A model generated the notes under the pieces. It searched no databases. It saw nothing but the letters and a program-made list of their open reading frames with translations, and was not told where the DNA came from. A DNA stretch of 64,000 nucleotides from Acidobacteriota bacterium (GTDB taxonomy: Bacteria > Acidobacteriota > Blastocatellia > RBC074). Within the stretch, counting starts at the first letter, position 1. Each line of letters begins with the position of its first letter. The stretch is from positions 1 through 64,000 of the forward strand of contig JACPYM010000117.1 of the NCBI GenBank assembly GCA_016196035.1. The letters run 5' to 3'. Shown here in pieces: positions 22,013 to 36,865 of this stretch. The translations under genes were made by a program, and so were the position numbers.

Positions 22013-23596
22013 ATGAAACCCTTCCACCTGGCCCTGGCCGTGCTTGCGGCAGCCGTGTCGGCAATCCAAACGTCCGCCCAAATTCCCAACATCGGCCCGG
22101 TCGGCGAAATCAAACGCGAACAGACCGGCTTTCAATTCACCGAAGGCCCCGCCAGCGATTTGCAGGGCAACGTCTATTTCAGCGACGTGCAGCGCAACCG
22201 CATCCACAAAATTGACACGCAGGGCGTGCTGACGACCTTTCTGGAAAACCAGCCCAGCGTCAACGGTCTGATGTTCGATCCGCGCGGACGGCTGATCGCC
22301 TGCCAGAGCGGGCGCATCGTGGCGATTGACCCGGCCACGCAGGAAGTCAGCGTGCTCGCCAGCCAGTTCGAGAACACCAATTTTCAAGGCCCCAACGACC
22401 TGGCCGTAGACCGGCAGGGCAACGTCTATTTCAGCGACCGCACGGCTGGCCCGGTTTATTTCATCGCCGCCGACCGCACGGTCAAACGGCTCTTCAACAA
22501 TCTGGCGCAACCCAACGGCGTGCTGCTCTCGACCGATGAAAAGACGCTGTATGTGCTCTACAACCAGCCGACGCTAGCCGCGTTTCCCATTACCGCGCCC
22601 GGCCAGTTGGGCGAACCGAAAATGATTTCCTTGCAGGGCACAGGCGGCGGCGATGGGATGACGCTGGACACACAAGGCAACTTGTATGTCACGCGGCCCA
22701 ACAGCAACGGCGTGCAAGTGCTCAAACCGACCGGCGAATCGCTGGGCCTGTTGACCTTTTCAGAAGCGCCGTCGAATTGCACCTTTGGCGGGCCGGATAT
22801 GAAAACGCTCTTTGTCACGGCGCGCACGTCGGTTTATACGGCGCGCATGCAAACCATCGGGCATCGTTTGATCGGCAACACGGCCTCCCTTTCCGCCGCC
22901 AGCTTTGCCGCCGGAGCGCCGCTCGCGCGCGATTCGATTGTCTCGCTCTTTGGCAACGGTCTAGCGGCCACGACGCAAGCGGCCTCGTCACTACCCTTGC
23001 CGACGACGCTGGCAGGCACAGCAATAAAAGTTGTTGACAGCACCAACACCGAACGCACAGCGGCGCTCTTTTTCGTATCGCCCACGCAAATCAACTATCA
23101 CTTGCCGCTCGCGCTGGCGGACGGGGCGGCGACGGTCGTGGTGACGGCTGGCAATGGTTCGATCTTCACGGAGAGTGTCCGCCTGGCCGCGACCGCGCCG
23201 GGTTTGTTCAGCGTCAATGCCAATGGGCAAGGGCCAGCGGCGGCGCTGGCCTTGCGCGTGCTGGCGGATAACACACAACGCTATGAGCCGGTCGCGCGTT
23301 TTGACCAGACGCTGAACCGCTGGATTACGATCCCGCTCGAATTCGGCGCGGGCGAGCAGCTTTTTCTCATTCTGTATGGCACCGGCGTGCGCAATCTGGG
23401 CGCGTCATCCAATGCGACCGTGACCGTTGGCGGAACGGTGGCGAACGTTAGTTTCGCCGGTGCCCAGGGTGATTTGATTGGCGTGGATCAACTCAACGTC
23501 GTCTTGCCGCGCGCCTTAACGGGGCGCGGTGAAGTGGATGTCGTGCTGACCGTTGGCGCACAGACGTCCAACGCGGTCAAAATCAATTTCAAATAA
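22013..23596 (+). CDS. secreted SMP-30/gluconolactonase-like beta-propeller with TIGR03437 domain
   Basis: The 527-residue protein has a signal peptide (residues 1-23). Residues 25-285 form an SMP-30/gluconolactonase-like six-bladed propeller with FTEGPASDLQGNVYFSDVQ, QGPNDLAVDRQGNVYFSD and NGVLLSTDEKTLYV. The Glu, Asn and Asp positions of the metal site are recognisable. The rest is a TIGR03437 domain (SAASFAAGAPLARDSIVSLFG, SPTQINYHLPLA, ATAPGLFSVNANGQG, then LYGTGVRN). It starts 19 bases after the preceding gene with GAAAGGA upstream, so it is probably the last gene of the 10.8-23.6 kb run. The 191-bp gap after it shows no clear element. Confidence 0.88.
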   Translation: MKPFHLALAVLAAAVSAIQTSAQIPNIGPVGEIKREQTGFQFTEGPASDLQGNVYFSDVQRNRIHKIDTQGVLTTFLENQPSVNGLMFDPRGRLIACQSGRIVAIDPATQEVSVLASQFENTNFQGPNDLAVDRQGNVYFSDRTAGPVYFIAADRTVKRLFNNLAQPNGVLLSTDEKTLYVLYNQPTLAAFPITAPGQLGEPKMISLQGTGGGDGMTLDTQGNLYVTRPNSNGVQVLKPTGESLGLLTFSEAPSNCTFGGPDMKTLFVTARTSVYTARMQTIGHRLIGNTASLSAASFAAGAPLARDSIVSLFGNGLAATTQAASSLPLPTTLAGTAIKVVDSTNTERTAALFFVSPTQINYHLPLALADGAATVVVTAGNGSIFTESVRLAATAPGLFSVNANGQGPAAALALRVLADNTQRYEPVARFDQTLNRWITIPLEFGAGEQLFLILYGTGVRNLGASSNATVTVGGTVANVSFAGAQGDLIGVDQLNVVLPRALTGRGEVDVVLTVGAQTSNAVKINFK

Positions 23597-23787: not shown

Positions 23788-26700
23788 ATGCCTTACCCAA
23801 ATTCCGCACCTTCGCGCCCGCTGCTGTGGCTGGCTGCCCTGCTCGGCTGCCTGCTCATCGGCAGCGCGGCGTCTGCGCAACAACCGCTCGGCACTATCGC
23901 GGGCACTGTCACCGACCCGTCGGGCGCGGTCGTCAAAGGCGCCACCGTCACCGCGACTTCCCTGGCGACGGGCGCGTCGCGCGTCACCACCACCAACGAG
24001 CAGGGCTATTTCATACTGCCCACCTTGCAAGCCGGTGAATACAAACTGAACATCACACAGACCGGCTTCGCCAGTTTTCTGGTTGACCGGATGGCCGTCG
24101 CTGTCGGCCAAACCGCCAACGTCGAGGCGCAACTAAAAGTCGCCAATGCCAATGAAACCGTGCAGGTCAGCGGCGCTGATGCCGCCGCTGCCGTCGAATT
24201 GCAGCAGGCCACCATTGGCGGCGTCGTCAATACGCGCCAGATCGAACAACTGCCGCTCAATGGGCGCAATTACTTGGAACTGGCGCGGCTGCAACCTGGC
24301 GTCGAGATTCAGGAGGGTCGCGCCTTCGATCCGACCAAGAGCCGTTACACCGGCGTTTCCATCGGCAGCCGCAGCGGTCGCGAAGCCCGCATCACGATTG
24401 ACGGCGTGGACGCGGTGGACGAACACGTCGGCACCACGACGTTGAACATCTCGCAGGAGACGATTCAGGAATTCCAGATTTCGACTTCTTCGTCGGACAC
24501 GTCTGCCGGGATCAGCGCGACCGGCGCGATCAACGTCATCACCAAACGCGGCAGCAACCAATTTCACGGCGGCGGCTTTTTCTTTGGCCGCAACAACGAT
24601 TTCGCCGCGCGCCCGAATTTCTCGGCGACCAAGCCGGAATTCAGCCGCAAGCAATACGGTTTCAGCATCGGCGGCCCGGCTATCAAAGACCGGCTCTTCT
24701 GGTTCGGCAACTACGAAAAGACCAAAGAGGATTCGGCGATCAGCATCAACACGCCGTACTTCCCCAGCCTGACGACCTTCGCCGCGCCGTTCGATGAGAA
24801 TTCCAGCAACGTGCGGCTGGACGGGCGCATTTCGCAAAACCACGATGGCTTCGTGCGCTGGACACGCAACGAAAATTCCAGCTTCGGCGGCTTCGGCGGC
24901 AACCGCTTGCCGTCGAGCGGCAATTTCAATACGAACATCACGCATCAATTCGTCATCGGGCTGGATTCGGTGTTGACGCAACATTTGACCAACGCCTTCC
25001 GCGTGGCGGGCACCGATTTCAAAAATCGCGTGCTGCGGCCCACGGCGGAAGCCCAAGCTGTGGGCATCGCCGGACTGGAAAACATTCGCATTGTCACCGA
25101 TGACGGTTTGCTCATCACCGGCCCCGACAGCATCACGCCGCAATCCACCTTCGAGCGCTTCTATCAATTCCGCGACGATCTGACGTTTGTGGGCGGACGG
25201 CACACCTTGCGCGGCGGCGTGGATGCCGTGAAGTACCGCGTCACGGTACTCAACTTCGTCAACGGCTTCCCGCAGTTCAACGTGATCTCGCCCGCTTCGC
25301 GCAATCCGGCGGACATCGTCAACCAGACGTTCATCAACACCACGCTGGGCAACAAGAAAGGCATCCGCATTCCCGGCACGCCCGACAATGCCCATCGCAA
25401 CACGCGCACTTCGTTTTACGGCGAAGATAGCTGGCGCGTCGCCACTAACCTGACGCTCAATTTCGGCGCGCGTTACCAAATAGATACGCATCCGCTCAAC
25501 AACGATCTGCAAAAGCCCACGCTGGTCGGCCCCGTCCTGCCCGCCGGACGCGCGGACACGCCGATTGACAAGAATAATTTCGCGCCGACCTTCGGCCTGG
25601 CCTGGGATCCGTTTAAGAACGGCAAGACTTCGATCCGGCTGGGCGGCGGCATCTACTACACGCTGCGCATCAGCAACCTCGTGACCAACGAACGCGCCTC
25701 TATCGCGCCCTTCAATTCGGGCAACGATACGATCACGTTGACGGCGGGCACGACCAGCGGCGCGGTGGATTTCAACCGCGACGGTGTGGCCGATTTCAAC
25801 TTCAACCCGATTCTGGTAAACGGCACCAAGCTCAAAGACGCGATTCCGGTCATTCTGGCCGGGCAGCAGGTTTACGTCTCCGCCCCGGCCAGTTCGACGC
25901 CGACGCTGGACATCACACGCACGGGCACGCTGATCACCAACGATCTGAAGACGCCCTATTCGCAGCAGTTCAATTTCGGCGTGCAACGCGAGTTGCCCAT
26001 GAATGCGGTGCTCGACGCCAATTTCATTTACAGCCGCACGGTGCATGAATTCATGCGCGATGTGGACATTGCCAATTTCTTCCCCGGCAACGGCGCGCCG
26101 ATCATCCTCGGCGATGGCCGCGCGCCGACGGCGGGCATCACGTTGATCACGTCGGATGGTTTCTCGCGCTATCGCGCCTTCACGCTCAAGGTGGACAAGC
26201 GGTTTGCGCACCGTTACCAATTGACCGGCAGCTATGCGCTGTCGAAATTGGAAACTTCGACAGCGGATGGTTTGGGCTTGGGCGGCGGCGCGCTGGTCAA
26301 TCGTAATCCGAAAGCCAACTTCGGCATCGGCCCACTGGATCGCACGCACCGGCTGACCATGAACGGCATCGTCGAATTGCCCAAGGGCTTCCGTCTCTCG
26401 ATGATTTCGACCTGGAACAGCGCGGTGCCTATGACGGCGCTGGTCGGTTCGGCGGACGTCAACGGCGACGGCATCAACGGCGATTTGGTGACCGGCACGC
26501 GGCGCGGCGATGTCGGGCGCAGGATTGATTCGGTCGCCAAGCTGAACGATGCGATTCACGCCTACAACCAGCAATTCGCGGGCAAGCGCAACCCGCGCAA
26601 CCAGGTGCTGCCATTCGTGCCGGACGTAGCCGACAACATCAAGTTCGGCGATTCCTTCATCTCGCAGGACGTGCAGTTGTCTTATGTCTTGAAGCTGAAA

Positions 26701-27021
26701 GACCGCGTCAAGATCGAAGCGACGGCGCAACTCTTCAACGCCTTCAACGTGTCGAATCTGGTCGGCGCGGCGGGTCTGCCTGCCAGTAACTACAACGGCA
26801 CGCTGACGACCATTGCGGCCTTGCCGACGGGTTTCAGCGTCAATGCGGCGGGCGCATTGGTGGACGCCAGCGGCGGGCGTGTGATCGCGGGCGTCTCGCG
26901 GTTGCCCACCGGTGCACTCATCACCAGCGGCTTTGGCAGCGCCAGCGCCGTGCGGCCCTCGATCCCGTCGGGCACGGGGTTGCCGCGCGCGGCGCAATTT
27001 GGCGTGCGGCTGAGTTTCTAA
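23788..27021 (+). CDS. TonB-dependent receptor-like outer membrane protein (Oar family)
   Basis: The 1077-residue protein has a signal peptide ending SAASAQQ. An N-terminal carboxypeptidase-regulatory-like domain covers residues 33-115 (GTIAGTVTDPSGAVVKGATV). A plug domain from about 130 to 230 (RQIEQLPLNGRNYLELARLQ) is followed by a C-terminal porin barrel ending in Phe (FGVRLSF), the usual outer-membrane terminus. This is the Oar/carboxypeptidase-plug architecture that is highly expanded in Acidobacteriota. Substrates are unknown, with large polymers or peptides usually inferred. ACAGGAG lies 7 bases upstream of the ATG. The gene is convergent with the HYR protein gene and ends at a bidirectional terminator. 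Confidence 0.93.
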   Translation: MPYPNSAPSRPLLWLAALLGCLLIGSAASAQQPLGTIAGTVTDPSGAVVKGATVTATSLATGASRVTTTNEQGYFILPTLQAGEYKLNITQTGFASFLVDRMAVAVGQTANVEAQLKVANANETVQVSGADAAAAVELQQATIGGVVNTRQIEQLPLNGRNYLELARLQPGVEIQEGRAFDPTKSRYTGVSIGSRSGREARITIDGVDAVDEHVGTTTLNISQETIQEFQISTSSSDTSAGISATGAINVITKRGSNQFHGGGFFFGRNNDFAARPNFSATKPEFSRKQYGFSIGGPAIKDRLFWFGNYEKTKEDSAISINTPYFPSLTTFAAPFDENSSNVRLDGRISQNHDGFVRWTRNENSSFGGFGGNRLPSSGNFNTNITHQFVIGLDSVLTQHLTNAFRVAGTDFKNRVLRPTAEAQAVGIAGLENIRIVTDDGLLITGPDSITPQSTFERFYQFRDDLTFVGGRHTLRGGVDAVKYRVTVLNFVNGFPQFNVISPASRNPADIVNQTFINTTLGNKKGIRIPGTPDNAHRNTRTSFYGEDSWRVATNLTLNFGARYQIDTHPLNNDLQKPTLVGPVLPAGRADTPIDKNNFAPTFGLAWDPFKNGKTSIRLGGGIYYTLRISNLVTNERASIAPFNSGNDTITLTAGTTSGAVDFNRDGVADFNFNPILVNGTKLKDAIPVILAGQQVYVSAPASSTPTLDITRTGTLITNDLKTPYSQQFNFGVQRELPMNAVLDANFIYSRTVHEFMRDVDIANFFPGNGAPIILGDGRAPTAGITLITSDGFSRYRAFTLKVDKRFAHRYQLTGSYALSKLETSTADGLGLGGGALVNRNPKANFGIGPLDRTHRLTMNGIVELPKGFRLSMISTWNSAVPMTALVGSADVNGDGINGDLVTGTRRGDVGRRIDSVAKLNDAIHAYNQQFAGKRNPRNQVLPFVPDVADNIKFGDSFISQDVQLSYVLKLKDRVKIEATAQLFNAFNVSNLVGAAGLPASNYNGTLTTIAALPTGFSVNAAGALVDASGGRVIAGVSRLPTGALITSGFGSASAVRPSIPSGTGLPRAAQFGVRLSF

Positions 27022-27124: not shown

Positions 27125-27137
27125 AACCAAACGAAAA

Positions 27138-27179
27138 GCAAACGGCCCCGGCTCTCACACGAGAACCGGGGCCGTTTGC
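27138..27179. terminator. bidirectional rho-independent terminator
   Basis: An 18-bp GC-rich stem (CAAACGGCCCCGG pairing with CCGGGGCCGTTTG) has T-rich flanks on both strands. It lies between the convergent TonB receptor and HYR-protein genes. Confidence 0.9.
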
Positions 27180-27200
27180 TTTTTGCGGTGTTCAGCCATT

Positions 27201-29003
27201 TCAGTTACAGCCAAACACATCGTTGCCATTGAACCGATCCAAGAGCGCTGCTAATGGGGCGAAATCCGCCGCGCGATTTTGGGTCGCCACGAATTGCGCT
27301 TGCATAAACAGGTCTTTGACCATCAAGGCAGGCGTCAGTGTGAATCCATTCGAAAGCTGCACCGGCGCAAAGTTAATGCCGTAACAACTCAGATTCGTCC
27401 ACAGCACATTGGCGTTGACCACCGAGCCCTGGCCGCCCGCCAGAATCAGGTTGAGTTGCGCCGCCACATACTCCTGGTTGAAGCGTTGCGAGGCGGTCAA
27501 ACTGAAGCCGGTGGGATTGCCTTGCAAGGCGCGCAGAATCGTCTGGAGGTTGTCGGTGCTGACCGACAGGTTGCCGTTGACGCCGCTGATCAACACGTTG
27601 CCTTGCGGAATGCGGCGCGGATTGAGCAGCCACCATTGCGGTGAACGCCAGCAGAAGGTGTCGCATTTGACCGGCGCTGGCGCTCCCACCGTCACCGTGA
27701 AGCTGCACGTGGCCGCCCCACAACTGCCATTCGCCGTGCAGGTCACGGTCGTCGTGCCCACCGGGAACGTCGTGCCCGACGCCGGCGCGCATGTCACCGC
27801 CGTGCCTGTGGGCGTGACGGTCGGCGCGCTGTATGTAACCGTGACCCCGCTGGCACTGGTTGCCGTGGTTGTGATGTTCGTCGGGCAGGTCAGCGTCACA
27901 TTCGGCGTGGCCGTCACCGTGAAGCTGCACGAGGTTGCGCCCGGGGCAGTGCAATTTACTGTGGTCACACCTGTCGGGAAACTTGAACCCGACGCGGGTG
28001 TACAAGTCGCTCCCGTAGGCGTCGCATAGGTCACCGTCGCCGAGGTGCTGCCCGCAGGCGGGCAAACCGTCTGATTCGCCGGACAGACAAGTTGCTGTTG
28101 CACAGGACAGACAGGACAAGCCTCCTGACAAACCAGCCCCGTCGGGAAACCGCCCGTCAACCCGCCCAGCAAACCCGTGCCTGTCAGTGCGCGGTCACCC
28201 GCCTGTTCCATGCGCTTGAGCACGAAATCGGTAAAGACCAGCGCGCTCGCGCCGAGGTCGCCGCCGCGCGCGAGCGTCGCGCCGAATTGGAAGCAATCGT
28301 TCAGCGACGACCCCGCCGCCGGATCGAAGGCCAGCACCAGCAAGTCGGAACGGTTTCCCGCCGCGCCTGACGCCACGTTGAGTGAAATCAATTCGCCTGC
28401 CTGAATGCGGCCTTGCTGCGCCAGACGATCATTGCGAAAGAGCGCGCCGTTCGGAGGCAATGTCGTCAGGCGCACACCGCCGCTCTCGTGCGTGAAGACG
28501 GCCAGATTAATCACGCCCGTGCCATCCGGCTTTTGCACAAAGAAGGTCACGGTATCGCCCACGGTGGAACCAGCGCTGGCGAGTTCAAAGCCGATGTCCC
28601 AAATACTGTCCAGACAAGAAACGAACGTCACACTGCCATTGGGGGCGGCAAAACTCAGCCCGGACAAGCTTGTCCCGGCAAACCCGCCGATGCCTGCCGC
28701 GTCGCCGCCAAAATTCGCCGCATTGACGACGAAACTGCTCAGGCCCAGCACCGGCGTCACCGACGGCAGCGTCAGCGTGAAGGGTTGCGCCAATAGAAAG
28801 TGATCGCCGCCGGGTAAGCCCGCCGTAGTGGTAAACCCATGCGTCGTCGCGGGAACATTGAGTTGCGGGCATGAGCTTTGCGCGCTTACATGCCCTTGCA
28901 AAACCGCAGCGGAATCGGAAATGAGCAACAGCAGGCAAAGCAGTAAACAGCCGGCCAAACTGGCCTGGCTAACCTTCGTCGTCAATATTTGTTTCTTGGG
29001 CAT
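27201..29003 (-). CDS. secreted HYR-domain protein with Cys-rich terminal domain (single-unit paralog)
   Basis: This 600-residue protein starts at 29003, where GGAGGG lies 5 bases upstream. The eight codons before it are not needed. It has a signal peptide (LLLCLLLLISDSAAV). A 260-residue N-terminal module follows (CPQLNVPATTHGFTTT, then GDHFLLAQPFTLTLPS, ending in FTDFVLKRMEQAGDR and GGLTGGFPTGLVC). Two HYR (hyalin) repeats come next, each with paired cysteines (CTPASGSSFPTGVTTVNCTA). A conserved C-terminal domain begins KCDTFCWRSPQWW and ends FGCN. HYR repeats are adhesion modules. The flanking modules are not recognised. The paralog at 30041-33889 has the same order with more units. Confidence 0.85.
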   Translation of the reverse strand: MPKKQILTTKVSQASLAGCLLLCLLLLISDSAAVLQGHVSAQSSCPQLNVPATTHGFTTTAGLPGGDHFLLAQPFTLTLPSVTPVLGLSSFVVNAANFGGDAAGIGGFAGTSLSGLSFAAPNGSVTFVSCLDSIWDIGFELASAGSTVGDTVTFFVQKPDGTGVINLAVFTHESGGVRLTTLPPNGALFRNDRLAQQGRIQAGELISLNVASGAAGNRSDLLVLAFDPAAGSSLNDCFQFGATLARGGDLGASALVFTDFVLKRMEQAGDRALTGTGLLGGLTGGFPTGLVCQEACPVCPVQQQLVCPANQTVCPPAGSTSATVTYATPTGATCTPASGSSFPTGVTTVNCTAPGATSCSFTVTATPNVTLTCPTNITTTATSASGVTVTYSAPTVTPTGTAVTCAPASGTTFPVGTTTVTCTANGSCGAATCSFTVTVGAPAPVKCDTFCWRSPQWWLLNPRRIPQGNVLISGVNGNLSVSTDNLQTILRALQGNPTGFSLTASQRFNQEYVAAQLNLILAGGQGSVVNANVLWTNLSCYGINFAPVQLSNGFTLTPALMVKDLFMQAQFVATQNRAADFAPLAALLDRFNGNDVFGCN

Positions 29004-29081
29004 ACGACCCTCCTTCGGGTAGGGCAACCCCAGCGCGCACCGGGTGGGTTGACGCTGTGTTGCGGGCGTTCATTAAATTGC

Positions 29082-29218
29082 GGTAGCGGGTCAATGGGGA
29101 GCGAGCCACGCCGCAGATCAACGCCGACCGACGCAGATCAATTGAATTGGCTAACAGGACTGATCCGCGTTTTCCAGCGTTCATCCGCGGCAAGACCTCT
29201 CCTCTTTGAGCCACTACC
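29082..29218. mobile_element. IS1-related MITE, copy 1 (137 bp)
   Basis: This 137-bp non-coding element starts GGTAGCGGGTCAA and ends TTTGAGCCACTACC, matching the IS1-family end at position 187. It is flanked by a direct repeat AAATTGC (29075-29081 and 29219-29225), the target duplication. Copy 2 at 63656-63792 has the same length and differs at about eight positions. It has no coding capacity, so it must be moved in trans. Confidence 0.85.
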
Positions 29219-29377
29219 AAATTGCGTCTGATCGGCAGACACGCTGTTGTGATCGAGAACAGGTGGCAAAAGCTATCGTCCAGGGAACGCGTCACATTTG
29301 CGACTCGCGCTGCCCACAGCAAGCGATATTCCTTAGTACTGTCCGCCATAAATCCTTTGAGGGTTGTCCGTCATGTT

Positions 29378-29560
29378 TTCGCCGCGATAGCGGCGGCTGA
29401 CTTTAGCCGTGGGTGCAACCCACGGAGCGCGCAGTTGAGATTCCCGCGTCGCGTCGGCGACGCTTGAATTCAGGCATCGCTGACGCGACGCGAAAACCAT
29501 TGTTGTCCTTCCCGGCGTTGAAAACGCCGGGCTAAAGTCAGCCGCCGCTATCGCGGCGAA
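29378..29560. repeat. hairpin-rich element with perfect 30-bp inverted ends
   Basis: Ends at 29378-29407 and 29531-29560 are perfect reverse complements (core CGCCGCGATAGCGGCGGCTG). Inside are three further palindromes: CCGTGGGTGCAACCCACGG, a CGTCGCGTCGGCGACG-type hairpin, and CCCGGCGTTGAAAACGCCGGG. No target duplication is visible. Two of the internal hairpins are variants of those inside the neighbouring element at 29598-29863. Confidence 0.8.
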
Positions 29561-29597
29561 GAGTTAGCGATTGCCCCCTCAACGAATTTACGACGGG

Positions 29598-29863
29598 GGT
29601 AGTGGTAAAAATGTAATGCTCGTCCGTTTTTGTCGCGTAGCGACAAGGTGAATTTAGCCGTGGTTTTCAAACCACGGTAGTCGGACGAAGCAGTATCGCG
29701 TCGCGTAGCGACGGTTGAAACGTTCCGGCAATGACCTCAGTTTCAACCGTCGCTACGCGACGCGGGCACTATGGACGATGCTACCCGGCGTTGAAACGCC
29801 GGGCTAAATTCAGGTCGCCGCTACGCGGCTGCAAAAATGCAGCATTACATTTTTACCACTACC
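29598..29863. mobile_element. second type of IS1-related miniature element (266 bp)
   Basis: Perfect 23-bp terminal inverted repeats lie at 29598-29620 and 29841-29863. They begin GGTAGTGGTAAAAATG, so the first eight bases equal the IS1-family terminus. The flanks ACGACGGG (29590-29597) and ACGGCGGG (29864-29871) look like an 8-bp target duplication with one mismatch. The interior is a chain of hairpins, the largest pairing CGTCGCGTAGCGACGGTTG (about 29698) with its complement near 29745. Confidence 0.75.
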
Positions 29864-29976
29864 ACGGCGGGTAGTACTTAGGAGTGGCACGGAATGAATG
29901 CAATAGCAGTGCGCTGAACACTGTTTCTAGCGGGCTGCGGGGAAAGCGCCGGAAACTTCCCAGGAGTGAAGAGAGC

Positions 29977-30014
29977 CAAAAAAAGGCCTCGGCTTCCACG
30001 TGGGAGCCGAGGCC
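29977..30014 (-). terminator. rho-independent terminator of the large HYR gene
   Basis: On the minus strand GCCTCGGCTCCCACG pairs with the following GGAAGCCGAGGC and is followed by seven T residues. It lies 27 bases downstream of the stop at 30041. Confidence 0.92.
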
Positions 30015-30040
30015 AGCCATTAACGTTGGAGGTCAACGTT

Positions 30041-33000
30041 TCAATTACAACCGAACAGGTCGTTGCCGTTGAACAGATCCAACAGCGTCGCCAGCGCCGC
30101 AAAATCCGCCGCGCGATTTTGCATGACGGCGAATTGGGCTTGCATAAACAAGTCCTTGACCATCGAATCGCGCGACAGCACGAAGCCGTTTGAGAGTTGC
30201 ACCGGCGCAAAGCTGATGTTGTAACAGCTCAGATTGGCCCACTGCACATTGGCGTTGACCACCGAACCACCACCGCCAGCCGCCAACAGGTTCAGTTGCG
30301 CCGCCACATATTCCTGATTGAACTGTTGCAATGGCGTCAACCCAAACCCAGTCGGATTCCCTTGCAAGGCTTGTTGAATCGCGTTGACATTGTCGGTGCT
30401 GACGGACTGATTGCCGTTGACACCGCTGATCAACACATTGCCTTGTGGAATGCGGCGCGGGTTGAGCTGCCACCATTGCGGCGCATGCCAGCAGAAGGTG
30501 TCGCATTTGATCGGCTGTACCGTGACCGTGAAGCTGCACGTTGCCGTGCCGCATTCATTCGTCGCCGTGCATGTCACCGTCGTGACGCCAATCGGGAACG
30601 ACGTACCCGAAGCCGGAGTGCAAACCACCGGCGTGCCCGCCGGTGTCACGCTCGGTGCGGGATAGCTGACCGGCGTGCCAACACCGCCCGGCCCGGCGGC
30701 AAAGGCCGTGATGTTCGTCGGACAAGTGATCGCCGGACGCGCGACAACTCTGACCGTAAAGCTGCACGTATCGGTCATCGTGCCGCTCACCGCCGTACAG
30801 GTCACCGTCGTCGTGCCCAAGGGGAAGCTCGCGCCTGATGCTGGCGTGCAAGACACGCTCGCCACATCCGGCGCCACCGCAGGCGCCGGATAGGTCACCA
30901 CTGCCGCAGTCGCGCCTGCCGCCGCACAAACCGACTGATTCGGCGGACAGGTGATCTTTGGCGGCGCCATCACCGTGACCGTAAAACTACACGACACCGG
31001 CCCGCAATCGTTGCGCGCCGTGCAAGTCACCGTCGTCGTGCCCACCGGGAAGGTTGACCCCGAAGCTGGCGAACAGGCGACCGGTGTGCCTGCGGGCGTC
31101 ACGGACGGAGCGGGATACGTGACCGCCGCGCCACTCGCGCTGGTCGCGGTCGTCTTGATGTCGCTACCACACGTGAGCGCCAGGGTCGGCGTCACCGTCA
31201 CGGTAAAGCGGCACGAATCGGAGCGCCCGCCAATGGAGGCCGTGCACGTCACCGTCGTCACGCCCAGCGGGAAGCTGGAACCCGACGCCGGGCTGCAAGA
31301 CACGTTCGCATTTGCGGGAAGCGCCACCGGCGCGGGGTAATTAACCGTCGCCGCACTCGCGCCGACCGGCGCGCAAGCCGTTTGCGGCGGCGGACATTCA
31401 ATGCGCGGCAGCGGCGGACACGCCGGGCAAATTTCAGGACAAACCAGTCCGGTCGGCCAGCCGCCCGTCAACCCGCCAATCAAGCCCATGCCACGCAAAT
31501 CACGGTCGCCCGCGCGCTCCATGCGTTTGAGCACGAAGTCGGTAAAGACCAGCGACGCGACGCCCGTCTTGTCGCCACGCGCGATGGTTGCGCCGAATTG
31601 GAAGCAATCGTTGAGCGGCGAATCGGCCCGCATCTCAAACGCAATCGTCAACAGCGGTGAGCGTTTGCCCGCCGCGCCTGCCTCCGTGCCGAACGGAATC
31701 AAGTCGCCGACACGTAAGCGGCCCGCGCCGACCGCCAGGCGATTGCCGCGATAGAGTTGCAGGTTCGGGTTGAGCGCGACCACGCGGGCGTCCAGCCCTT
31801 CAAAGTCGAAGGCCGCCAAGACGATCACGCCTGAGCCATCGGGTTTCTGCACAAAGAGGGTGACCTTATCGCCCATCGTCACGCCCGCCGACGCCAGCAG
31901 GAAGCTGAAATCCCACAAGCTGTCATTGCACGACAACGCTGTGACGCTGCCGCCCGGCGTGCGATAGCCGAAGCCCATCAGTTCGGTGCCACGGAATCCG
32001 CCAACGCCCAGCGCATCACCGCCAAAGGTCGTGCGGTTGACGTTGAACACATTGAAACCATCCATCGGCGAACGGAACGGCACCGTCAGCGTGAAGGGTT
32101 GGCGCAAGAGGAAGTGATCGCCTTGCGGCAAACGGTCGCTGGTGACAAAGCCATGCGTAACCGCCGGGTTATCAATTTCCGGGCAAGGCACGGGTGGCAA
32201 CGGACAGGCCGGGCAAACCACCGGGCAAACCAGCCCCGTCGGCCAACCGCCGGTCAAACCGCCGAGCAAACCCATCCCAAGCCGCGCGCGGTCGCCGGGC
32301 CGCTCTTCGCGCTTGAGCACGAAGTCGGTGAAGACCAGCGAACTTGTGCCACGTCCGCCATCGCGCGCGATGGTCGCGCCGAATTGGAAACAATCGTTGA
32401 GCGGCGAATTGGCCCGCTGGTCAAACGCAATCGTCAGCAGCACCGAACGATTGCCGGCCTCGCCCGCTGCTGTATTGAGCGGAATCAAATCGCCCGCAAA
32501 CAAACGGCCCGCGCCCACCGCCAGCCGGTTGCCGCGAAACAGTTGCAGGTTCGGATTCAGTTCGGTGACGCGCGCGCCGTCGCTTTCGTGCGTGAACACG
32601 GCCAGCGTAATCACGCCGGAACCATCGGGCTTTTGCAAAAACAGCGTGACCTTATCGCCCGCCGTCGCGCCCGCCGAGGCCAGCAGGAAGCTAAAATCCC
32701 ACACGCTATCCAAACACGACAACGCCGTCACACTGCCGCCCGACGTGTTGTAGCTGAAGCCCATCAAATTGGTGTTGGCAAAACCGCCAACGGATTCGGC
32801 ATTCCCGCCAAAGCTCGCGCGATTGACCAGGAAGGTGTCGAAGCCATCCATCGGCGAACGCACCGGCACCGACAACGCGAACGGTTCGCGCAACAGGAAG
32901 TGATCGCCCTGCGGCAACCGGTCGGTGGTGGTAAAGCCGTGCGTCACCGCCGGGTTGAAAATCACCGGGCAAGGCACCGGTGGCGGCACGCAGTTCGGGC

Positions 33001-33889
33001 AAATGATCGGACACACCAGCGCGGTCGGATAGCCGCCCGTCAAGCCGCCAATCAAACCACGGCCCGGCAAATTGCGGTCGCCGCGTTGCTCCATGCGTTT
33101 GACCACGACATCGGTGATGACCAGCGAACTCGTCCCCGCGCCCTCGCCACGCCGAATGTTCACGCCGAATTGGAAGCAGCCATTGAAAGGCGAACCAGGG
33201 CTGGGATCGAACGACACGGTCAACAAGGCTGAACGGCGGCCCGCCGCGCCCGCCGCCTGCGCCAGCGGAATCAAGTCGCCCGTCTGCAACCGGCCCGCGC
33301 CATTGGCCAGACGGTTCTCGCGGAACAACTGCACGTTCGGATGCAACGCGGTCACGCGCGCGCCGCCGCTTTCGTGCGTGAAAACAGCGATGCGAATGGT
33401 TCCGTCACCATCCGCGCGTTGCAGATAAAAGCCGACGGTATCACCGACCGTTGACCCCGCGCTGGCCAGCAGGAAGCTGAAATCCCAGACGCTGTCATTG
33501 CACGACAACAGCGTCACGTTGCCGCCCGGCATTGCATAACTGGCGCCGGTCAAGCGCGTGCCGGCGAATCCGCCAATGCCAGGGACATCGCCGCCGAAGT
33601 TGGCGTCGTTGACCTGAAACATGCGGAAACCCGGCATGTTTGTTGATGAAGGTACGGTAAAGGTAAAGGGTTGTGGCAACAGGAAATGATCGCCTTGGGG
33701 CAGGCGGTCGCTGGTGGTAAAGCCGTGCGTAAGCGCCGGCACACTGACTTGCGGGCATAAGGCCTGTGCGCTGGCGACGCTTTGTAACGTAGGCGTGGAA
33801 TCGGAAGCCAGCAGCAAGAGACATAGAAAGAGACAACTCGCAAAGGCGGCATAACCGAGCTTCGCGGCGAACTTCGGGGTTCGGGGCAT
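30041..33889 (-). CDS. secreted HYR-domain protein, triple-unit paralog
   Basis: This 1282-residue paralog of the 27201-29003 protein starts at 33889, with GAAGGAG 6 bases upstream. After a signal peptide it carries three copies of the 260-residue THGFTT/GDHFLL module (starting near CPQVSVPALTHGF, CPVIFNPAVTHGF and CPEIDNPAVTHGF). It then has four HYR repeats with the CxPASGxxFPxGxTTVTCTA signature and one copy of the C-terminal domain KCDTFCWHAPQWW...FGCN. The units match the paralog well, but the copy number is 3+4 against 1+2. This points to expansion by internal duplication. A role as a long cell-surface filament or adhesin is inference. Confidence 0.88.
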   Translation of the reverse strand: MPRTPKFAAKLGYAAFASCLFLCLLLLASDSTPTLQSVASAQALCPQVSVPALTHGFTTSDRLPQGDHFLLPQPFTFTVPSSTNMPGFRMFQVNDANFGGDVPGIGGFAGTRLTGASYAMPGGNVTLLSCNDSVWDFSFLLASAGSTVGDTVGFYLQRADGDGTIRIAVFTHESGGARVTALHPNVQLFRENRLANGAGRLQTGDLIPLAQAAGAAGRRSALLTVSFDPSPGSPFNGCFQFGVNIRRGEGAGTSSLVITDVVVKRMEQRGDRNLPGRGLIGGLTGGYPTALVCPIICPNCVPPPVPCPVIFNPAVTHGFTTTDRLPQGDHFLLREPFALSVPVRSPMDGFDTFLVNRASFGGNAESVGGFANTNLMGFSYNTSGGSVTALSCLDSVWDFSFLLASAGATAGDKVTLFLQKPDGSGVITLAVFTHESDGARVTELNPNLQLFRGNRLAVGAGRLFAGDLIPLNTAAGEAGNRSVLLTIAFDQRANSPLNDCFQFGATIARDGGRGTSSLVFTDFVLKREERPGDRARLGMGLLGGLTGGWPTGLVCPVVCPACPLPPVPCPEIDNPAVTHGFVTSDRLPQGDHFLLRQPFTLTVPFRSPMDGFNVFNVNRTTFGGDALGVGGFRGTELMGFGYRTPGGSVTALSCNDSLWDFSFLLASAGVTMGDKVTLFVQKPDGSGVIVLAAFDFEGLDARVVALNPNLQLYRGNRLAVGAGRLRVGDLIPFGTEAGAAGKRSPLLTIAFEMRADSPLNDCFQFGATIARGDKTGVASLVFTDFVLKRMERAGDRDLRGMGLIGGLTGGWPTGLVCPEICPACPPLPRIECPPPQTACAPVGASAATVNYPAPVALPANANVSCSPASGSSFPLGVTTVTCTASIGGRSDSCRFTVTVTPTLALTCGSDIKTTATSASGAAVTYPAPSVTPAGTPVACSPASGSTFPVGTTTVTCTARNDCGPVSCSFTVTVMAPPKITCPPNQSVCAAAGATAAVVTYPAPAVAPDVASVSCTPASGASFPLGTTTVTCTAVSGTMTDTCSFTVRVVARPAITCPTNITAFAAGPGGVGTPVSYPAPSVTPAGTPVVCTPASGTSFPIGVTTVTCTATNECGTATCSFTVTVQPIKCDTFCWHAPQWWQLNPRRIPQGNVLISGVNGNQSVSTDNVNAIQQALQGNPTGFGLTPLQQFNQEYVAAQLNLLAAGGGGSVVNANVQWANLSCYNISFAPVQLSNGFVLSRDSMVKDLFMQAQFAVMQNRAADFAALATLLDLFNGNDLFGCN

Positions 33890-34392: not shown

Positions 34393-35706
34393 TTACCTGC
34401 GCACAAAAAAGAAATCCCCGTCAATCGAGGAGTTTTCCCAAGGTACCTGCGAGCCATTGCTGCGTTCCTTGACGCCGATGCGGGTCAGTTTGAAAACGTC
34501 TTCGATCTTCAGGCCCGGCTTCCGCAGATTGCGCAACAACTCTTCGGTATAAAGCCCGTTCTGGCCGGTGCCGTCGCGCGCCACGTTGCCGGGCGAAGTG
34601 GCGTAAGCGACCAAAGTGCCATTGGCCTCTTTGGGCAATTTGACCACGGCCAGCCCGCGCGTCAGCGAACGCGTCGCCGCGGCAAAGGGGTTGTCGCGGC
34701 AGGCATCGAGAATCAGGATGCTCAGCGCATTGCGGGCATTGGCGAATTCAGAGAGCACGCGCCCGGCGTCCACCGTCTCATATTCGACATCGGCTTCCTT
34801 TTCGATGCGCACGCCGAGCGGCACCAGATAATTCGTGCCGTTCACCTGGATGCCGTGCCCGGCGAAATAAAACAGCCCGACGCTCTTGGCGTCGAGCTTT
34901 GCGCCAAACGCGCGGATGGCTTCTTCCATGCGCCGCTTGTCGGCGTTTTCGAGCATCGTCACCTGAAAACCGCATTCCGCCAGCACCTCCGCCATCGCCC
35001 GCGCATCGTTGACCGGATTTTTCAGCGGCACCGTTTCATAGGCGCTGTTGCCGATGAGCAGGGCAAAGCGTTTGTCCGCGCCGATCTCGCGAATCGCTGA
35101 CGCCACCGCAGGCATGGCCGCCGCGACCGCTTTGCCTGATTCGCGCGGTGCCGGCGTTGGATTGGCCGTGCGCTGCGGCTCCGGTTCACTCTGCTTTTGC
35201 TGTTTGAGCAACACCGACCAGTTTTCAATCGGCGCTTCAGCCGGTTTCTTTTGTGCGGTCGTGGGCACGGTAGGACTGAAATGCGCGCCTGCGACTTGGC
35301 CGCTGAGCTTCAAACTATACGTGCCGCTCTTGTTGGCGGACGGCCCGCTCAAACGCAACAGGACGATCTGCTTGCCGCCCAGCCGCAATTTGGCCGCGCG
35401 TTTGTCGCTGCCATTCGGCGTCGAAGCGGACGCCTCGAATTTGAGCAGCGGCACAAAACTCGTATCCAGCACCTCAACTTCCAGCATCGCCCAGTCCTGA
35501 TAGCCCGTCACACTCAACGTGAATTCGACACTGCCCGAGGCTTCCAAGGCATAAAAGGTTTCGGTGCGCACGCCGGGCCGGAGCGTGCCTTTGATTTCAG
35601 TGCCCGGCAGCGGCAGCGGATTGGCGCGGTCTTGCGCGCTGGCTTGGCTCAAACCAAACAGCAGTACGGTTCCGAGTAACAAACAAATTCTGTTTTGCAG
35701 AAACAT
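34393..35706 (-). CDS. caspase-family (peptidase C14) secreted protein
   Basis: The 437-residue protein has a signal peptide (residues 5-24, ending QASAQ) and a beta-rich N-terminal domain of about 150 residues. After a proline-rich linker comes a caspase p20 fold from about residue 212 (KRFALLIGNSAYETVPLKNP). The catalytic dyad is complete: His284 in YFAGHGIQ and Cys336 in ILDACRDNPF. The conserved TSPG and GLYTEELL segments follow. The start at 35706 is chosen for the signal peptide and the ACGAGG upstream; the extra 48 upstream codons come from the inverted repeat. It lies downstream of the CsgG-like gene in the same orientation. Its role is unknown. Confidence 0.9.
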   Translation of the reverse strand: MFLQNRICLLLGTVLLFGLSQASAQDRANPLPLPGTEIKGTLRPGVRTETFYALEASGSVEFTLSVTGYQDWAMLEVEVLDTSFVPLLKFEASASTPNGSDKRAAKLRLGGKQIVLLRLSGPSANKSGTYSLKLSGQVAGAHFSPTVPTTAQKKPAEAPIENWSVLLKQQKQSEPEPQRTANPTPAPRESGKAVAAAMPAVASAIREIGADKRFALLIGNSAYETVPLKNPVNDARAMAEVLAECGFQVTMLENADKRRMEEAIRAFGAKLDAKSVGLFYFAGHGIQVNGTNYLVPLGVRIEKEADVEYETVDAGRVLSEFANARNALSILILDACRDNPFAAATRSLTRGLAVVKLPKEANGTLVAYATSPGNVARDGTGQNGLYTEELLRNLRKPGLKIEDVFKLTRIGVKERSNGSQVPWENSSIDGDFFFVRR

Positions 35707-35739
35707 CACAACCTCGTTTCTTGTTGCGGGTACGCCAGC

Positions 35740-35842
35740 ATTCTGCCTTCTCAATTCAACATTCCGCCTTCCTCGCACGGGCAGGCCTGGCACTTTTCCC
35801 CACTGCTCAGGAATGTTGAATGTTGAATTGAGAAGGCAGAAT
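35740..35842. repeat. inverted repeat between csgG-like and caspase-like genes
   Basis: Outer arms ATTCTGCCTTCTCAATTCAA (35740-35759) and its complement (35823-35842) pair perfectly, with the inner AACATTCC/GGAATGTT continuing the stem after a small gap. It separates two genes of the same strand, so any termination here would make the caspase-like gene independently expressed. Confidence 0.85.
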
Positions 35843-35857
35843 CTGCGCAAACACGTG

Positions 35858-36865
35858 CTACTTCTTTACCTTGTCTTTTACCTTCGCCGGCTGGCTGCCC
35901 GTGTATTTGCCAACCGCGCTGACATCGTCCACTTCGGTAATCACGACTTCGCCGATCTTGTCGGAAAGTACGCGCAAGACCTTGCCCGTGTCAGGGTCTT
36001 TGACCTCTTTGATGGGGCGTTCGACATTCAACTTGTCGCCGACTTTCAACCCGGCGTTTTTGCCGACGTTCAGCACCACCATCGAACCGGCGACATCGGC
36101 GATGGTGCCTTCGACTTTCATTTCAAGCACGGGCAGCGTCGCAGCCTTGCTCTCCAACTGCGACGAGAGTTTGCCGACCGCGTCATAAACGGCTTCGCCA
36201 ATGATTGTCGAGGCGAAATTGCTGGAGGTCATGTCCTGGTTCCCCGCGCCGACGACGTCGCCAATGATGCCGCCGCCGCCCGAAACCGAAGTGCTCTCGC
36301 GTTTGGATTCGCCGCGCGCATCGCCCGCATAAAAAATTTCCGCCGTCGTCGTGTTGACCATGCGGAAGTTGACGCCGACGACCGCTTTCGCCTTTTCACG
36401 ATTGACCTTCATGCCGCCAAAGCCGGGCAGGTTGCCAGGGATGCGCACAGCGCCGCCGCCCGCTTTTGATTTCGACGAATCATCGCGGCCAAAGGTGTTG
36501 ATGCTGCCCATAATCAGCGTATCCACGCCCAGAATCTTGCCGATCTTGGCGGCGGTCGTGGCGTCCACGCGCCCGCTCGCGCCGAAGTTCTGTTCAGCCA
36601 GAATCTTTTCGATCTGCTTGCGCTCGACCACGGTGTAAACGCCGCTCTGCACCAGCTTGGTCACCAGCAGGTCGGCGATGCCCTTGCCCACATCCTGGTT
36701 GCTGCCAAAGTAAGCATACACGTTGCTCGTCACCGTCGCGTAATCAAAATCCAGCACGGCGATGCGGCGTTTCTCTTGTGCCGATGAATTGTTAGCGGGA
36801 TTGACGGCCAGCAGGGTCAGCAGGGCCAGGGCAGTGATAAAGCGCGTAATGATTGTGTTACTCAT
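35858..36865 (-). CDS. CsgG-family secreted protein
   Basis: This 335-residue protein has a signal peptide (ALALLTLLAVNPANNSSAQ) and a CsgG/curli-assembly-like domain. The domain signatures are RRIAVLDFDYATV, GKGIADLLVTKLVQSGVYTVVE, RKQIEKILAEQNFGASG and ILGVDTLIMGSINTFG. The C-terminal 90 residues form a small beta domain (GSMVVLNVGKNAGLKVGDKL), as seen in CsgG relatives of the FlgT/TolB-like type. There is no lipobox cysteine, so it is not a classical CsgG pore lipoprotein and may be periplasmic. Genes for curli subunits are not nearby. It is followed by the caspase-fold gene. Confidence 0.85.
   Translation of the reverse strand: MSNTIITRFITALALLTLLAVNPANNSSAQEKRRIAVLDFDYATVTSNVYAYFGSNQDVGKGIADLLVTKLVQSGVYTVVERKQIEKILAEQNFGASGRVDATTAAKIGKILGVDTLIMGSINTFGRDDSSKSKAGGGAVRIPGNLPGFGGMKVNREKAKAVVGVNFRMVNTTTAEIFYAGDARGESKRESTSVSGGGGIIGDVVGAGNQDMTSSNFASTIIGEAVYDAVGKLSSQLESKAATLPVLEMKVEGTIADVAGSMVVLNVGKNAGLKVGDKLNVERPIKEVKDPDTGKVLRVLSDKIGEVVITEVDDVSAVGKYTGSQPAKVKDKVKK

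Follow-up and report, generated by a model that had tools for sequence, protein, structure and literature searches.

Two tandem HYR-repeat genes of an Acidobacteriota bacterium end in an apparently lineage-restricted domain that is most likely a surface-attachment or sorting tail

Results

Two head-to-tail genes built from the same modules

A stretch of 64,000 nucleotides (nt) from an Acidobacteriota bacterium (assembly GCA_016196035.1, contig JACPYM010000117.1, positions 1 to 64,000; the whole stretch is hereafter named the window) was analyzed around two genes that lie head to tail on its minus strand. Gene A (27201..29003) codes for 600 amino acids (aa) and gene B (30041..33889) for 1282 aa; both begin with ATG, and a purine-rich stretch lies ahead of it in each. 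Their products are made of an N-terminal leader, one or three copies of an unnamed module (N-module), repeats of the HYR family and an unnamed C-terminal domain (CTD). We describe here the anatomy of the two proteins, the distribution of their two unnamed domains, and the role that the CTD might play. Acidobacteriota are abundant and, to our knowledge, the way in which their proteins are fixed to the cell surface has been little studied.

In gene A, a leader with a hydrophobic core, recognized by eye (28872..29003), is followed by a single N-module of 248 aa, predicted to be a beta-sandwich (28128..28871), by a Cys-rich hinge with two HYR-like repeats (27669..28127), and by the CTD, predicted to be mostly helical (27204..27668). 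Gene B starts with a similar leader, also recognized by eye (33758..33889), and continues with N-module copies 1 (33011..33757), 2 (32225..32971) and 3 (31439..32185), a hinge with four HYR repeats (30509..31438) and the CTD (30044..30508). Its three N-modules are direct repeats with an exact period of 786 nt, hinge included, and share 63-76% identity with one another. Pfam recognized one HYR stretch in gene A (27687-27905; 30.5 bits for a cut-off of 21.7) and four in gene B (31193-31408, 30971-31174, 30746-30970 and 30518-30736; 87.5 bits). No Pfam stretch covers the first HYR-like copy of gene A; as it belongs to the same DNA repeat family (D6, 2 + 4 copies) as the other five, a count of two and four HYR repeats is fair.

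An earlier, sequence-only reading of this DNA had described tandem HYR paralogs with 1+2 against 3+4 internal modules and a common Cys-containing C-terminal domain running from KCDTFCW to FGCN. This description was borne out in full by the two minus-strand open frames, the 786-nt repeats, the Pfam stretches and the D6 family. Between the two genes, the N-modules are 60-65% identical, a kinship far beyond chance (E-value 1.4e-91 or better), and the CTDs 79% identical, so that the CTD is the better kept of the two. Genes A and B are probably tandem-duplicated, modular surface proteins of the adhesin type, which their leaders would direct to export.

Family searches of the two unnamed domains

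Pfam searches at E up to 5 found HYR as the sole family in genes A and B, with the N-module and the CTD unmatched; dockerin repeats, in particular, had no match at this threshold in either CTD. NCBIfam at E up to 1 returned nothing for gene A and one irrelevant row far under the cut-off for gene B. With 30 CTD members and the same limit, the lowest E-value in NCBIfam was 0.048, for a family of no relevance, and none of the rows was a known sorting model. Profile searches of solved structures (PDB, E up to 10) with the N-module and the CTD gave chance-level rows only. A known family for the CTD was therefore rejected, all three kinds of search being at chance level, and a relationship between the N-module and the CTD was rejected as well (hhalign probability of just 0.5%).

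The claim that both regions match no known family thus held as far as Pfam, NCBIfam and PDB profiles are concerned, none of which gave a credible match. It held less well for structure: the CTD model found no convincing fold match in the PDB, but the N-module was modelled into a very common beta-sandwich class (ConA/MAM/CBM-like, see below). In the open-access literature, judged by titles and abstract openings, nothing was seen on this CTD, on HYR with C-terminal domains in Acidobacteria, on SdrD B-like domains in Acidobacteriota, or on the C-terminal model TIGR03437; by title, TQGYW and TQGFW led only to ACE2 or coronavirus work, and no title on the present domain stood among the choice-of-anchor matches listed. 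Novelty at the sequence level is real, with two unnamed domains, one of which has a predicted fold without convincing PDB match.

The CTD ends proteins of varied make-up

The family of the host was next considered. All 11 of the family genomes examined contributed to a collection of 47 CTD copies in 47 open frames, counted from stop to stop, so that frame lengths overstate the proteins. Five of these frames touch the edge of a contig or of the fetched stretch (L076, a 63-residue fragment, L079, L081, L084 and L103, L numbers designating loci). The CTD ends 1-14 residues before the stop in 45 of the 47 frames, and 39 and 56 residues follow it in the other two. The parts upstream vary, and include HYR, SdrD_B, TIG with cohesin, Big_7 with tyrosinase, He_PIG/DUF11 and Ig-like domains. 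The frame L108:6548-10213 holds a predicted tyrosinase, Big_7 repeats and the CTD, and the L021 protein carries a cohesin domain outside its CTD. In several proteins a linker rich in proline and threonine (P/T-rich) precedes the CTD. All four TIG-type CTD proteins scanned also contain a choice-of-anchor-Z repeat of NCBIfam, a label given at NCBI to repeats that occur with alternative C-terminal anchors. Finally, seven short frames (197-267 codons) consist of a CTD and little else; two of them were submitted to Pfam and gave no match.

Most frames with an N-module (23 of 25) also carry the CTD. The exceptions are L077, cut by a contig end, and L085, where the N-module is followed by the NCBIfam domain Soli_cterm (TIGR03437, Solibacter uncharacterized C-terminal domain) in place of the CTD; one head therefore takes different tails. 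Terminal position, varied upstream parts and a head with different tails together give the CTD the look of a C-terminal attachment or sorting domain, without proving it. Such a tail, specific to this lineage, is in our view what the CTD most likely is. Its conserved cysteines make it suited to be an extracellular, disulphide-bonded domain.

Several observations weigh against this view. Among the 11 frames with HYR in the genome, only 3 carry a CTD, so most HYR proteins do without it. By eye, the CTD has neither a transmembrane tail nor a sortase-like motif: genes A and B end in NGNDVFGCN and NGNDLFGCN, respectively, with no hydrophobic segment; a PEP-CTERM or LPXTG-type combination of short motif, transmembrane helix and basic tail was not seen there, nor was any NCBIfam signal of this kind matched. 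No machinery gene was found. Moreover, a terminal position taken alone would equally fit a binding or oligomerization domain.

This last point leads to the principal alternative, in which the CTD has no anchoring role and serves instead in binding or assembly, with exopolysaccharide, peptidoglycan or a further surface protein as examples of what it might bind; the proteins would then be soluble or components of a matrix. In its favour, the CTD is a folded domain of 155 residues without visible transmembrane or basic tail, the seven short frames in which the CTD is nearly alone would suit a scaffold or matrix protein, and the tyrosinase fusion could be a matrix-bound enzyme. However, such a domain should also be found at internal or N-terminal places, and none is among the 47 copies; the CTD is last in the chain in all but two frames, and stands beside repeats that NCBI names after a choice of anchor. 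We consider this alternative somewhat unlikely, and less probable than a surface tail.

An extreme C-terminal domain used by many paralogues also recalls the cargo of type IX secretion, or of another known pathway with a C-terminal signal, whose signal would have diverged here. Type A and type B sorting models are held in NCBIfam, yet no sorting model was among the matches of the 30 CTD members at E up to 1. Known type IX C-terminal signals are beta-sandwiches, whereas the predicted CTD fold is mainly helical. A search for the translocon protein SprA was negative in all 11 family genomes, yet equally so in 14 of 14 controls. This explanation is improbable.

Two arrangements were seen around CTD genes. 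At L021:2856-13891, L098 and L110, two non-orthologous CTD genes adjoin two pairs of similar small genes. One of the L021 pair is weakly sigma-like (under Pfam cut-offs) and the other has a weak zinc-finger match followed by TPR and CHAT; the L110 pair had no Pfam match. At L081, L087 and L109, from three genera, a similar gene is convergent with the CTD gene, and codes for an M28-type peptidase where checked (L087).

Both domains appear restricted to one lineage

Nine N-module copies and eight CTD copies were counted in the 9.59 Mb genome that contains the window, after removal of one further CTD row (E-value 0.82, internal stop). Besides genes A and B, they lie on contig C86 (three genes with both domains), C54 (two genes with both) and C114 (one gene with the CTD only). 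Within the host family, the N-module was present in 10 of the 11 genomes examined and the CTD in all 11. In the host class, where at most 24 candidates per genome were scored, the CTD was detected in 11 of 162 genomes, all from the host family, and in none of the 151 outside it. For the phylum, 396 genomes were drawn evenly from a larger group and the best first-look candidates per genome were scored (6-9 for these two domains, 6-10 over all phylum scans); the N-module and the CTD were each found in 3 genomes, again all from the host family.

A scan of 84,980 species with short, strict peptide patterns yielded nine CTD loci, all labelled as Acidobacteria metagenome-assembled genomes (MAGs); peptide patterns centred on the present genome gave none in the multi-species scan. 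Plasmid-borne spread was also considered, and rejected since neither domain had a tblastn match among plasmids. As the family, class, phylum, pattern and plasmid scans matched only the host family or Acidobacteria MAGs, the N-module and the CTD are lineage-restricted, as far as these searches reach (full profiles covered the phylum Acidobacteriota).

Predicted fold and possible distant relatives of the CTD

AlphaFold2, given 14 CTD sequences (the two window copies and 12 from the pattern-scan loci), returned a confident, mostly helical model, with a predicted local distance difference test (pLDDT) of 88.2 and a predicted TM-score (pTM) of 0.87. Compared with the PDB, its best Foldseek E-value was 1.5 and its best VIA-align Z-score 2.8, so no convincing solved relative emerged. 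A known fold was rejected on these grounds, such an absence being no proof of a new fold.

More distant relatives were sought with profiles. With a profile built on 30 CTDs (A7), another C-terminal subfamily, a divergent one (A8), was detected in six genomes of the host family; a comparison of the two profiles confirmed the relation with a probability of 97.4% (E-value 1e-11, 123 columns). The subfamily's own profile matched only 1 of the 396 phylum genomes, from the host family. Another lead was a type of C-terminal tail marked by a TQGYWKN motif. Seven of the 162 class genomes, which belong to another family than the host, carry such tails or parts of them, as does one Deinococcus plasmid, making eight places in total (L139-L146). 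Six of these were aligned (A9, without L142 and L145), and none of the six had a Pfam or NCBIfam match.

The score of the CTD profile against this alignment was 34.0, and none of 200 column permutations reached it (maximum 20.9); the divergent subfamily scored 25.0, also above all 200 permutations (maximum 19.2). Reversed and unrelated controls scored 9.5-16.5. By hhalign, the probability was 69% over 62 columns for the CTD and 15% for the divergent subfamily. These profile scores suggest, but fall short of establishing, that the CTD is distantly akin to the unnamed TQGYWKN tails.

The N-module is likely a beta-sandwich of a common class

The best of five AlphaFold2 models of the N-module is beta-rich, with a pLDDT of 90.5 and a pTM of 0.89. 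Foldseek returned 33 matches at E up to 0.001, the first one being a chain with a carbohydrate-binding module (CBM; E-value 9.2e-5, TM-score 0.33). The top VIA-align matches were MAM domains, sialidase-associated sandwiches, calreticulin, legume lectins and the lectin domains of SasG/Aap. Z-scores went up to 8.7, 14 of 1000 chains having a Z of 8 or more, a level near that commonly reached without kinship. From these models, the N-module is likely a ConA/MAM/CBM-like beta-sandwich, a fold class rather than a family. The class would suit an adhesive or glycan-binding head.

This assignment should be weighed against four facts. The other four models were less sure (pLDDT 75.6-85.0); Foldseek TM-scores were low, many rows being sandwiches of viral coats or esterases; models that lack a clear match also typically reach best VIA-align Z-scores of 7-8; and the fold class, if rightly predicted, is common, with no binding residues identified in the N-module.

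N-modules move as cassettes

One such move could be read in the first of the C86 genes (L019:497-5023). Its N-module and Cys-rich hinge lie in a gapless match of 765 base pairs (bp), 82% identical to the neighbouring gene. Outside this block, the only match between them at E up to 1e-5 is a 93-bp piece of the CTD. In protein, their N-modules are 85% identical and their CTDs 48%. The block is in frame and sits inside an HYR repeat which is uninterrupted in three orthologues from another genus; past it, Pfam matched HYR positions 19-81 only. Over about 1220 residues, the gene is 56% and 58% identical to the orthologues L105 and L091, respectively. Here, a whole domain has entered another one, and relatives still keep the unbroken site. 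On these comparisons, the N-module moves as a cassette, through insertion into HYR in L019 and through tandem triplication in gene B.

Both structures could in principle be artefacts of assembly or annotation, tandem repeats being prone to mis-assembly and the genome being in 139 contigs. However, the three copies of gene B differ from one another to the extent given above and share a single open frame of a 207-kb contig, and the module inserted in L019 is in frame, with a gapless match to its neighbour at 82% identity. An artefact is very improbable.

The N-module tree unites the four copies of the window (supports 98/95) and places the gene A copy beside the second and third copies of gene B (95/91). 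This grouping hints that gene A may have lost N-module copies. The tree joins the copies of the two genes to other copies from this genome alone, so that no orthologue of either gene was seen among the relatives examined; the sole congener examined is 73% complete.

The sequence-only reading had also proposed rapid variation in length, which did not hold as a general rule. Of 25 open frames with an N-module, 24 have just one copy, and two sets of orthologues are stable: the HYR orthologues L091, L102 and L105 keep four HYR stretches each (1254-1258 codons), and four TIG-type orthologues keep their length (2382-2394 codons). Triplication is special to gene B, and the variation lies between paralogues of this genome.

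Neighbourhood of the gene pair

Convergent with gene A is a plus-strand gene with a CarboxypepD_reg domain and an outer-membrane barrel (23788..27021), which we take to be of the Oar type; the gene pair does face an Oar-like receptor, as had been noted. An inverted repeat with runs of A and T (27134..27183), resembling a terminator, separates the receptor gene from gene A. The receptor was considered as an obligate partner and rejected. When 40 loci were compared, receptors of its cluster were present at 5, not always in the same orientation, and Oar-like receptors are many in these bacteria; for these reasons no link is claimed.

The gap between genes A and B holds two dispersed elements, one of 183 bp with perfect terminal inverted repeats of 31 nt (29378..29560) and one of 266 bp with perfect terminal inverted repeats of 23 nt (29598..29863). 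At least 92 pieces matching this stretch are present genome-wide (best 40 of 79 candidates scored). The two elements are like miniature inverted-repeat transposable elements (MITEs). Target-site duplications were looked for, and the only candidate, of 3 bp at a shifted edge of the second element, was not convincing.

Upstream of gene B, on the same strand, are genes for a caspase-domain (Peptidase_C14) protein and a CsgG-family protein (34393-36865). On the other side, a plus-strand gene (22013-23596) codes for a protein ending in Soli_cterm; with the CTD, the window therefore holds two types of acidobacterial C-terminal domain.

Discussion

Our preferred reading is that genes A and B code for modular surface adhesins, with the N-module as head, HYR repeats as stalk and the CTD as a tail that holds or sorts the protein at the surface, and that N-modules spread as cassettes. 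We give it a probability of about 0.55. The leader would export the proteins, and the N-modules, turned outward and lectin- or CBM-like, would make contact with a glycan or some other partner at a surface. HYR repeats would form an Ig-like stalk, and the 155-residue CTD would hold the protein at the cell surface or sort it there, perhaps with the help of a partner or of a processing machinery. Within the family, other stalks and a predicted enzyme end in the same CTD, and N-module cassettes of about 260 codons would have spread by tandem duplication and by insertion into stalk domains. Gene B, with three heads to the single one of gene A and four stalk repeats to its two, would differ in binding valency and reach while the tail is kept.

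The CTD might go further than this, and be the address tag of an undescribed sorting or anchoring pathway, forming with the TQGYWKN tails a wide superfamily with a fold unseen in the PDB and a role like that of type IX or PEP-CTERM signals. We consider this extension doubtful. As a domain carried by adhesin-like proteins, by giant proteins made of repeats and by a predicted tyrosinase, the tail names dozens of candidate surface proteins, and gives a handle for seeking its partner.

Modular surface proteins whose C-terminal tail can be exchanged are already known as a kind, and several known systems can be set beside the present one. Genes A and B carry genuine HYR (PF02494), but of the 11 frames with HYR in their genome, 8 have neither N-module nor CTD. 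Soli_cterm resembles the CTD in being C-terminal, acidobacterial and of unknown function, and it replaces the CTD behind the L085 N-module; it differs in being a curated model of 225 positions, with no match to the 30 CTD members or to genes A and B at E up to 1. The TQGYWKN tails, compared in examples L139, L140, L141 and L146, share with the CTD a tail position (with a P/T-rich linker before it in L139), a C...YW start, an AAxLN-type stretch and a D.YNNG...C end. They are shorter, and were aligned over 62 columns.

Staphylococcal adhesins are made of a head, a stalk and a cell attachment. Compared with SasG/Aap and the MSCRAMM adhesins, genes A and B have an HYR stalk, show no LPXTG-type signal, and have only 11-12% identity in the fold matches. 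The likeness is in the plan, with a predicted beta-sandwich head, a repeat stalk and a C-terminal attachment, a part that the CTD would play; the lectin domains of SasG/Aap are fold neighbours of the N-module at Z-scores of 7.3-7.8, and relatives also contain SdrD_B repeats.

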